Notes under the pieces: generated by a model
Database searches by the model: none
The model's input: the letters and a program-made list of their open reading frames with translations, nothing else
Told to the model about the DNA's origin: nothing
Translations under genes and position numbers: made by a program
Shown here: in pieces, positions 21,925 to 26,956 of the stretch
Layout of the letters: each line of letters begins with the position of its first letter
How positions within the stretch are numbered: the stretch's first letter is position 1
Assembly (NCBI GenBank): GCA_016841675.1
Contig: JAENYQ010000039.1
Coordinates: 1 to 32,108, forward strand
Direction: 5' to 3'
Source of the DNA: Desulfotomaculum sp.
GTDB taxonomy: Bacteria > Bacillota > Desulfotomaculia > Desulfotomaculales > Desulfallaceae
Length of the DNA stretch: 32,108 nt

Positions 21925-22359
21925 ATGAAACTAGACAGCAATTATCATTCAGTGTTCAAGCTGACTTATCACCTTGTTCTGGTGGTCAAATACCGCCGGA
22001 AGGTACTCAACGACCAGATAGCCTTACGCATTAGGCAAATCGGCGAGTATATAGCGCCGAACTATAATATTGTTTTTCTGGAATTCAACCACGACCGTGA
22101 CCACGTGCATATACTCTTCAGCGCCCACCCCAACAGCGCCTTATCCAAGTACATTAACGCCTTCAAAAGCGCCTCGTCCCGGCTGGTTAAAAAAGAGTTT
22201 CCGGAAATCAGAAAATATCTCTGGAAAGAGTATTTCTGGTCCCGCAGCTTCTGCCTCTTGTCCACTGGAGGAGCGCCAATGGAAGTGATTAAAAAATACA
22301 TTGAGTCCCAGGGAGAAAAAAATGATCATCGTTCACAGGTTCCGCATCGAACCAACTAA
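21925..22359 (+). CDS. tnpA: IS200/IS605 Y1 transposase TnpA
   Basis: A 144-aa single-strand DNA transposase. The HUH motif is H60-V-H62 in DRDHVHILFSAHP, and the nucleophilic tyrosine is Y125 in VIKKYIESQ. The N-terminal LTYHLVLVVKYRRKVL matches the family. It cuts at the element ends next to the subterminal hairpins and moves single-stranded circles. No strong ribosome site was seen before the ATG; IS605 tnpA is often poorly translated. Its 3' end overlaps tnpB by 38 bases in another frame. Confidence 0.92.
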   Translation: MKLDSNYHSVFKLTYHLVLVVKYRRKVLNDQIALRIRQIGEYIAPNYNIVFLEFNHDRDHVHILFSAHPNSALSKYINAFKSASSRLVKKEFPEIRKYLWKEYFWSRSFCLLSTGGAPMEVIKKYIESQGEKNDHRSQVPHRTN

Positions 22360-23392
22360 AGAGCAGGCGCAAAAGATGTTTCAGACACTTACGCTTTGTC
22401 GCCGGCTTTACAACGCCGCTTTGGAACAGAAGGAAATATGCTACCGGCAAAGAGGCGGCTCGCCTTCCTGCATTGCGCAAAAGAATGAGCTTCCGGCGTT
22501 AAAAAAAGAATTGCCGGAATACAAACAGGTCAACGCTCAGGTTCTACAGGACTGCCTTCAGAGGCTGGATGAGGCATTGCAGCGGTTTTTCAGCGGTCTG
22601 GCCGGATATCCTCACTACAAAGATCGGGATCATTACCGCTCTTTCACCTACCCGCAGGCAGATAAACAAGATCATTTTAAAAAGCTTGGTCACATTTACC
22701 TGCCGAAGATAGGCTATGTCAAAATGAATGCTCACTTTGCCTTTGACCCTGCAAAAGTTAGCCGGATAAACGTCAAGTATCATAACGGTAAATGGTACGT
22801 CAACTTAACTTCGGAAATAACAGAAGCCCAAGCCGTAGAAATTGCTAATAAAGTTGGTATTGACGTTGGGCTTTTAACCTTTGCCGCCCTTTCAGACGGC
22901 ACTAAAATAGACAACCCGAAATACTTTCGTAAATCTGAAAAGAAATTAGCCCGGTTGCAGAGGCGACTTTCCCGCAAGAAAAAAGGTTCAAACAACCGAA
23001 GGAAAGCCAAAACCAAAGTAACCTGGCTGCACGACAAAATAGCTAACCAGCGCAAGGACTTCTTACACAAAGTTTCTTACGGCATAGTAAAAAAGTACGA
23101 CTTAATTGCTGTAGAAGACTTGTCGGTCAAGAACATGATTAAAAATCATCACTTAAGCAAAAGCATTGCCGATGCCGGGTGGGGGAAGTTTATCAACTAC
23201 CTGGAATATAAATGCCTAAAATACGGCAAGACATTCGTAAAAATACCACCGGGAGGAACGTCCCAGACCTGTGTCTGCGGTGCCAACGTGCCAAAAGACT
23301 TAAGTACCCGGGTGCATAAGTGCCCTAAGTGCGGGCTGATTGCAGATCGGGATGTAGTTTCGGCAATGGTTATCCTGCAAAGAGCAAGTTAA
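22322..23392 (+). CDS. tnpB: TnpB RNA-guided nuclease of the IS605 element
   Basis: A 356-aa RuvC-type protein of the family ancestral to Cas12. The catalytic acidic residues are all visible: Asp in KVGIDVGLLTF (about 181), Glu in IAVEDLSVKNM (about 265) and Asp in GLIADRDVVSAM (about 342-344). The zinc knuckle is TCVCG with HKCPKCG (Cys at about 317, 319, 334, 337), and the basic ARLQRRLSRKKKGSNNRRK segment lies between RuvC-I and II. I chose ATG 22322, preceded by GGGAG at 22311-22315. It should use the RNA made from its own 3' end and the element right end to cut target DNA. Confidence 0.93.
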   Translation: MIIVHRFRIEPTKEQAQKMFQTLTLCRRLYNAALEQKEICYRQRGGSPSCIAQKNELPALKKELPEYKQVNAQVLQDCLQRLDEALQRFFSGLAGYPHYKDRDHYRSFTYPQADKQDHFKKLGHIYLPKIGYVKMNAHFAFDPAKVSRINVKYHNGKWYVNLTSEITEAQAVEIANKVGIDVGLLTFAALSDGTKIDNPKYFRKSEKKLARLQRRLSRKKKGSNNRRKAKTKVTWLHDKIANQRKDFLHKVSYGIVKKYDLIAVEDLSVKNMIKNHHLSKSIADAGWGKFINYLEYKCLKYGKTFVKIPPGGTSQTCVCGANVPKDLSTRVHKCPKCGLIADRDVVSAMVILQRAS

Positions 23393-25868: not shown

Positions 25869-26096
25869 TACAATCCTTTTGACTTGACCAAGGTATGGTT
25901 TAAAAAGGATTTCCCACTGATTGAGGTAGGCTATTTTGAATTGAACCGTAATCCGGAAAATTACTTTGCCAATGTTGAACAGGCTGCCTTCAACCCGGCC
26001 AACATTGTACCCGGCATAGGCTTGTCACCCGACAAAATTTGGCAGAGCCGGCTATTCTCCTATGGTGATACCCAGCGCTACAGACTCGTGCGGTGA
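25869..26096 (+). pseudogene. fragment of a monofunctional heme catalase
   Basis: About 75 codons, starting [10 protein letters not shown], matching the central part of small-subunit catalases: [40 protein letters not shown] and [13 protein letters not shown]. The last holds the RxxxY proximal heme ligand motif. The reading frame ends at TGA 26094-26096 right after that motif. The N-terminal distal His/Asn region and the C-terminal part are absent, so no active enzyme can be made. Deletion on both sides of the fragment is likely; the ~50-bp repeat lies just upstream. Confidence 0.85.
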
Positions 26097-26155
26097 TGCC
26101 ATTTCATTTGTATTTATAAAAATGTTACGATAAGATGGTTTGGGGGGGTGTTCAA

Positions 26156-26956
26156 ATGACTATAAAAGAACTGGGACATGGGGTAGGCTGCTGAGGCCCA
26201 TCCCAAGAAGGTGTTGGTCAACACCAGGAAAATATTTTAGAAAACTGCTTGATTTGTGGAAATAAACTTGATTACCTGGAATCCGGCCAAGAGTTTTCTT
26301 GCCTATACTGCGGGCAAAAAGAAATTGGCTACGTTTGCTGTCCAAACGGCCATTATGTTTGTGACGAGTGTCATGGGAAAGATGCTTATGAAAAAATCCT
26401 AAATCTGGCTCTTACTGCACAGGGCTCAAATCCATTGGAAATTGCCGAAAAGATGATGAAATCAGCTCCTATACCAATGTTAGGCTGTGAACATGCCTGG
26501 ATAGCCGCGGGGGCTCTTTTGGCAGCAATTAAAAATAGCAGAGAAATTAAAATTACCAACCGTCAAATCGCTGAAGCTTTGACTCGAACAAAAAAACAGG
26601 CTATTGGGGCCTATTGCGGTTTGACTGGTATTTGCGGCATAGCTCCTGCTATAGGGGCTTGCTTCAGCGTTATTTTGGGGGCTGCCTGTCCAAAAGATAA
26701 AGAAACTGCCACTACCATGCATGTTGTATCTCAGGTTATCAAAACCATAGCTAAGCAAACCGGCCCCTGTTGTTGCAAAAATTTTGTACGGACAGCTTTG
26801 ACCTTAAGCTGTAAACTGGTAATAGAACATTTAAAATTTAACTTACCTTGTTTCGGGGAAATAGTCTGTGATGATAGTAACAGGCATCCGCACGGTTGTA
26901 GGAAGGAAAAGTGCCACTATTATCATGTCCTTGACAGCAATCAACAAGGCCTATAA
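26156..26956 (+). CDS. DUF5714-type Cys-rich protein, candidate selenoprotein (Sec13)
   Basis: A 266-residue frame if the in-frame TGA at 26192-26194 (codon 13) is read as selenocysteine: MTIKELGHGVGC-U-GPSQ. ATG 26156 follows a G-rich site (GGGGGGGTG). After TGA the frame continues to paired zinc-ribbon Cys (C31, C34, C49, C52), then CCPNGHYVCDECH (C61-C72), and a helical part with CGLTGICG, GPCCCKNF and a Cys-rich tail, as in DUF5714 proteins. The only downstream start (TTG 26249) would fall inside the CLICG zinc motif, losing C31. A GGTC-loop hairpin sits 21 bases after the TGA. The function is unknown; redox or metal-linked methyl/radical chemistry is only a guess. A nonsense mutation is the alternative. 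Confidence 0.78.
26192..26225 (+). promoter_or_regulatory. SECIS-like element for UGA recoding
   Basis: Downstream of the TGA (26192-26194) a perfect 6-bp stem GGTGTT (26210-26215) and AACACC (26220-26225) closes the tetraloop GGTC (26216-26219). The bacterial SECIS of E. coli fdhF has an apical GGUC loop as well, and bacterial SECIS loops generally lie about 16-37 bases after UGA; here 21. The bulged U found in fdhF is not evident. SelB binding is inferred. Confidence 0.65.

Follow-up and report, generated by a model that had tools for sequence, protein, structure and literature searches.

The closest described relative of the protein reported here is MbdU, the "metal-binding double selenoprotein" defined by NCBIfam model NF045648 (Haft & Tolstoy 2025, mSystems, doi 10.1128/msystems.01417-24, via PMC13188914). 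An entry in a 2026 review lists MbdU with the motif CU and two selenocysteines (Sec), after Haft & Tolstoy 2025 (PMC13188914). In full-length MbdU-type proteins (L050 and L107, scoring 789 and 805 bits against NF045648), the first Sec falls at the N-terminal CU shared with the protein described below; their DUF5714 is followed by a C-terminal region with a match to the DUF2284 section of NF041536, and a second TGA lies in that region. The C-terminal Sec domains of MbdU and of its AhpD-fused relatives are shared with ArsM_DUF2284_UU and ArsM_AhpD_UU (NF041536 and NF041537), in which, by contrast, an arsenite methyltransferase stands in the place of DUF5714. For the RNA signal that directs Sec insertion, the bacterial SECIS model specifies a loop of 3 to 9 nt with a G in the first two positions, a stem of 4 to 16 bp, a UGA-to-loop distance of 16 to 37 nt, and a minimum free energy (MFE) of at most −7.5 kcal/mol (PMC13188914).

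The window, by which we mean the whole stretch of DNA analyzed (32,108 nucleotides, contig JAENYQ010000039.1 of Desulfotomaculum sp. assembly GCA_016841675.1), contains a standalone relative of MbdU with the following features.

26142..26148, + strand: G-rich ribosome-binding site GGGGGGG, 7 nt before the ATG (sequence)
26156..26956, + strand: standalone DUF5714 selenoprotein gene (predicted), 266 residues with Sec13 (sequence; DUF5714 and NF045648 matches)
26189..26194, + strand: Cys12 codon TGC followed by the predicted Sec13 codon TGA, arm motif CU (same position in 50 aligned Clostridia genes)
26210..26225, + strand: putative SECIS hairpin GGTGTT-GGTC-AACACC within the coding sequence (covariation, frequency, fold)
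26246..26311, + strand: first zinc-ribbon cysteines C31, C34, C49, and C52, invariant (alignment; model beta strands 39-48 and 55-61)
26339..26371, + strand: second Cys/His site C62, H66, C69, and C72, invariant (alignment)
26396..26923, + strand: DUF5714 domain (PF18978), a helical Cys-rich core with GCE (C111), CGLTGxCG (C154, C160), C178, CCK (C206, C207), HPHxCR (C248), and C253 (profile match, alignment, model)

The frame runs from ATG 26156 to TAA 26954-26956, and its sole internal in-frame TGA is at 26192-26194 (codon 13), in the context Cys-TGA-Gly-Pro (C-U-G-P). These coordinates agree with the original prediction for this locus, which had described a continuous frame with one TGA, an ATG and G-rich ribosome site of its own, and a downstream start that cuts into the first zinc-ribbon Cys pair. 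That downstream start is TTG 26249 (codon 32), no other being listed among the table-11 ORFs; it opens a 235-aa ORF and would drop Cys31, a residue invariant in 47 aligned relatives. Most relatives have a G-rich or AGGAGG-type site and a start 6 to 19 codons ahead of the TGA.

Residues 81 to 256 match DUF5714 at 175 bits (gathering cutoff, 26.2), and the protein matches model positions 34 to 272 of 468 in NF045648 (8e-107, 358 bits; curated cutoff, 600); no other NCBIfam model matched the window protein significantly. Like MbdU, it has a DUF5714 core and an N-terminal Cys-Sec arm at the homologous place. Unlike MbdU, it lacks the C-terminal DUF2284 part and therefore the second Sec, and it falls under the 600-bit cutoff. 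A DUF2284 continuation was absent from the downstream frames even with TGA read open, the next gene being a flavin reductase, and neither C-terminal domain of NF041536 and NF041537 is present. Sequence comparison thus indicates that the window product corresponds by homology to the N-terminal half of MbdU and shares the first Sec, yet is not MbdU as defined. The original designation as a candidate new selenoprotein was too strong, because MbdU is already known and the family is already modeled as a selenoprotein under NF045648. DUF5714 is named in no paper of the literature covered. As far as that literature shows, with Haft & Tolstoy 2025 known via PMC13188914, the new elements are the standalone single-Sec form, the apparent location of the Sec arm at either protein end, and the association of the arm with the GCE cysteine.

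All four components of the Sec machinery proposed as a first check are present in the host genome: a tRNA-Sec (selC) scoring above the Rfam cutoff, also called by ARAGORN, with anticodon TCA; selB; selA, immediately upstream of selB; and selD (L032, G000 contig C134:74587-75504), which itself holds an in-frame TGA, like other Sec-containing SelD genes. A homologue was found in 12 of 60 related genomes, and nine genes beside the window's carry the TGA (same family or order, counting L027, whose alignment began past the TGA). Scanning species genomes turned up 78 relatives, and 57 genes with a TGA in an N-terminal arm lie in named genomes; TGA carriers include isolates and complete chromosomes. 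Virtually all armed genes of Clostridia have TGA as the arm codon ahead of the zinc ribbon. The TGA is kept where the preceding Cys has been replaced, as in RGU (L079, L080), RWU (L072), and the LTU and FTU of Thermodesulfobacteria (L110, L111). Among the aligned DUF5714 relatives, the TGA occupies the same column and is followed by a conserved hairpin, no Cys codon was found at the Sec position, and the reading frame is preserved between the TGA and the zinc ribbon, where length changes are of 3 nt. A close relative from Pelotomaculum (L037) has TCA (Ser) at the Sec position and retains the hairpin; L053 has lost arm and hairpin and contains a frame break; and L086, a draft sequence containing Ns, is frameshifted, its DNA being similar to that of the armed relative L072. 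None of the contrary outcomes envisaged in the original prediction was therefore found: the machinery is present, the arm and hairpin are kept, and the sole other codon is the one Ser.

The perfect 6-bp stem (26210-26215 paired with 26220-26225) starts 15 nt past the TGA, and the GGTC loop (26216-26219) starts 21 nt past it; the stem and loop were correctly recognized from the start, with the amendment that the loop, not the stem, lies at 21 nt. The window hairpin fits the bacterial SECIS model for loop (GGUC), stem (6 bp), and spacing (21 nt). Its MFE is −5.4 kcal/mol for the bare stem, −6.9 with 2 to 3 flanking nt, −7.2 at 48 nt, and −11.9 at 66 nt including the TGA, such that the −7.5 kcal/mol threshold is reached only with the stretch around the TGA included, the bare stem being weaker. 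Folding energy was no better than that of shuffled sequence (66-nt fold, z = +0.97), and synonymous shuffling per gene gave a mean z of −0.97 over 61 sites (window gene, +1.2). Because folding energy discriminates poorly here, covariation was taken as the test instead. In an alignment of 50 genes, whose rows are related and thus not independent, the hairpin pairs form in 91% of cells (18 to 53% in slid controls), both-sided changes occur at 6/6 stem pairs (51 double-change cells), and the observed covariation score was reached by 0/500 shuffles. RNAalifold, unprompted, recovered 5/6 hairpin pairs. Such paired change across differing codons and amino acids (GVGQH, SAGQH, DAGQH, DTDRYH, and DTGEY) would be hard to explain otherwise. 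A hairpin with a G in the first two loop positions lies at SECIS distance after 50/57 arm TGAs, compared to 5.6% of all TGA triplets at the same loci. Third-position differences between the window gene and its 88% identical orthologue in Desulfoscipio geothermicus DSM 3669 (L035) number 0/12 in codons 1 to 12 and 1/17 in codons 14 to 30, compared to 53/226 in the rest. On this comparative basis (covariation, frequency, and low third-position change), the putative SECIS hairpin is more than a chance structure.

A recent nonsense mutation or a sequencing or assembly error, in whose favor one may cite the decay of a catalase fragment just upstream and the sense codon of L037, appears extremely improbable and is refuted by the recurrence of the same TGA with its covarying hairpin in many independent genomes and by the intact remaining frame (50 synonymous versus 28 nonsynonymous codons between the window and D. 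geothermicus, codons 31 to 256). The TGA could also be a true stop, ending a 12-residue leader peptide, with the hairpin regulatory and the gene starting at TTG 26249. The 235-aa ORF from that TTG is compatible with such an arrangement; however, the start deletes the invariant Cys31, the stretch between the TGA and the zinc ribbon is maintained in frame, the spacing and loop fit the SECIS model (PMC13188914), and the homologous position in MbdU is Sec. We therefore regard a true stop as very unlikely. The preference for Sec over nonsense expressed in the original prediction is borne out by the machinery, the recurrent TGA, and the hairpin covariation, and we conclude from these comparisons that the standalone MbdU relative very probably contains Sec at codon 13.

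The AlphaFold2 model of the protein has a core with a mean pLDDT of 84 (mostly 80 to 98), comprising a zinc-ribbon-like beta part and a helical domain. Residues 1 to 19 and 21 to 23 have pLDDT values below 50, placing Cys12-Sec13 inside an almost wholly disordered segment (residues 1 to 23) before the zinc ribbon, as expected from the earlier suggestion of a flexible arm ahead of a Cys-rich zinc domain. Further invariant Cys/His residues in the DUF5714 core are C111, C154, C160, C178, C206, C207, C238, H244, H246, C248, and C253; the full invariant set suffices to build zinc sites and a soft-ligand pocket. A Foldseek search of the PDB with the model gave no match with E < 1, and a PDB sequence search returned only marginal zinc-finger and unrelated matches; neither search led to a structure that locates the active site. 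A likeness to the IRG1 fold was considered and rejected, since the best VIA-align score (Z of 5.7, 4.1 Å over 141 residues) is within the range of unrelated helical folds. Homology to the C_GCAxxG_C_C family (PF09719/TIGR01909), prompted by the CGLTG and CCK motifs, received no significant support from hhalign (probability 0.3%, 3-row profile). The CG(A)LTG and CC(R/K) motifs of the two families are alike, whereas C_GCAxxG_C_C proteins lack the zinc ribbon and the arm, and kinship is unproven.

When 299 genomes of the phylum were searched with a profile, two kinds of DUF5714 protein emerged, which separate with full support in a tree based on the core. The TGA arm is present in 14/15 LGCE-type proteins and in 0/16 MHGPE-type proteins (Fisher P = 6e-8, descent ignored), suggesting that the arm is linked to the GCE cysteine, relatives without the Sec arm also being without that cysteine. 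The non-Sec HGPE-type proteins (L130 to L145) share the zinc ribbon and DUF5714 core of the window protein but have no TGA arm and HGPE in place of GCE. In four of them (L141, L142, L144, and L145), an N-terminal Cys-Cys pair (MECCETK, MGCCDTE) precedes the zinc ribbon by a few residues and could be a sulfur-based equivalent of the Cys-Sec arm.

The GCE-type relatives from Nitrospirota have no N-terminal arm. The endings of several are Cys-TGA-Lys/Arg-stop (L091, L095, L096, L098, and L099; L103 has one residue more), with a GC-rich hairpin past the stop codon at SECIS distance, and others have CHTU, CHSU, or CTSU tails (L089, L092, L090, L093, and L094); the L089 tail is doubtful, because no selB above the cutoff was found in its genome. 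Hairpins at SECIS distance (for example, GCGTCCC-GTC-GGGACGC and CCGTCC-GGTC-GGACGG) follow 16/17 C-tail TGAs, including the CKTU tails of Clostridia, compared to a background of 6.3%. The Nitrospirota Cys-TGA-Lys/Arg endings thus apparently encode a C-terminal Sec, and both ends of the protein seem able to host the Sec arm. The core tree, in which many branches are weak, puts the C-tail forms among the N-armed ones. MbdU fusions are scattered among standalone forms in this tree, which suggests, without proof, that the standalone form is the older of the two. Separately, L048 (partial NCBIfam matches only), L073, L077, L087, and Actinobacteria L100 to L105 are DUF5714 fusions in which an AhpD-like domain carries GCEPU, GCAPU, or GCSPU; these proteins have an additional Sec-like TGA close to or at the C terminus (CKTU tails in Clostridia) and possibly three Sec each.

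One tentative reading of the family as a whole is that the standalone DUF5714 selenoproteins are an unmodeled, possibly ancestral form of MbdU, in which the short Cys-Sec arm would be a movable module. The arm would be N-terminal in Clostridia, where its SECIS lies within the gene; C-terminal in Nitrospirota, the SECIS being mostly past the stop; and present at each end of the protein in some Thermincola and Desulfosporosinus. As part of the same reading, these selenoproteins would act in the same organometal/arsenic pathway where DUF5714 and arsenite methyltransferase swap beside the same Sec partner domains.

For the window protein, SelB and tRNA-Sec would decode the codon 13 TGA as Sec by way of the in-gene SECIS (GGUC loop, 21 nt downstream), because the hairpin sits inside the coding sequence. 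The disordered arm (residues 1 to 23) would then carry the adjacent Cys-Sec pair to the zinc ribbon and Cys-rich helical core and may fold over the soft-ligand pocket, where the selenolate could capture, reduce, or hand on a soft substrate, be it a metal or metalloid (As, Hg), an organometal, an alkyl group, or a disulfide. The selenolate would probably be partnered by cysteines of the core, for instance C111 (GCE). Such a metal(loid)/redox-arm role is put forward as a possibility short of probable, and the redox or alkyl/metal-binding function originally proposed is still something that we infer. Metal(loid) chemistry is favored on account of the fusion partners and sporadic neighbors. A Rosetta-stone hint comes from the fusions of DUF5714 with Sec-bearing DUF2284 and AhpD-like domains, since in NF041536 and NF041537 these domains are joined to an arsenite methyltransferase instead. 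The chemistry that such partners indicate could, however, be one that does not involve arsenic. Sporadic neighbors among the relatives include UROD (URO-D type), MetE-like, DUF1638, CbiM, an ArsP_2 exporter, a CopZ-like metallochaperone, and ArsR-like proteins; no conserved operon was found across the relatives, and neighborhoods vary. The window gene's own neighbors (HAD hydrolase, catalase remnant, flavin reductase, and MsrAB) say little on its role. The catalase remnant (PF00199 positions 279 to 339) occupies 25902-26096, just upstream of the selenoprotein gene, and ends at TGA 26094-26096. Elsewhere in the window, 21925-23392 holds an IS200/IS605-type element, in which a Y1 transposase gene comes first and an OrfB/TnpB-like gene, encoding a Cas12f1-like TNB domain, overlaps it.

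Mammalian thioredoxin reductases present Sec as an adjacent Cys-Sec pair on a flexible C terminus. By analogy, the protein could be a genuine selenoprotein whose arm is a redox relay for thiols or peroxides and not a metal(loid) handler. The adjacent Cys-Sec on a flexible end, C-terminal in other relatives, fits such a relay, as do the AhpD-like Sec domains fused in L048 and a weak likeness of the L108 core to the putatively redox-active C_GCAxxG_C_C family (residues 148 to 208, E = 2e-4, below the cutoff; L108 is the sole family member with such a match). However, MbdU is named a metal-binding protein, the fusion partners and some neighbors (ArsP_2, CopZ, and ArsR-like) suggest metal(loid)s, and the profile comparison with C_GCAxxG_C_C was not significant. 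We consider a plain redox relay rather unlikely, while acknowledging it as a serious rival to metal(loid) handling.

Genes of the standalone type may be misannotated, because a gene finder that does not recode UGA would start downstream, losing the arm and cutting the zinc ribbon, and because NF045648, the sole selenoprotein model matching here, demands 600 bits. With one Sec and one domain, the standalone form is a simpler biochemical target than the fusions. The apparent switching of the Cys-Sec arm between protein ends, each with its own SECIS, constitutes a natural experiment, and the arm's presence at either end suggests that the Sec pair is a tethered group and not part of the fold.
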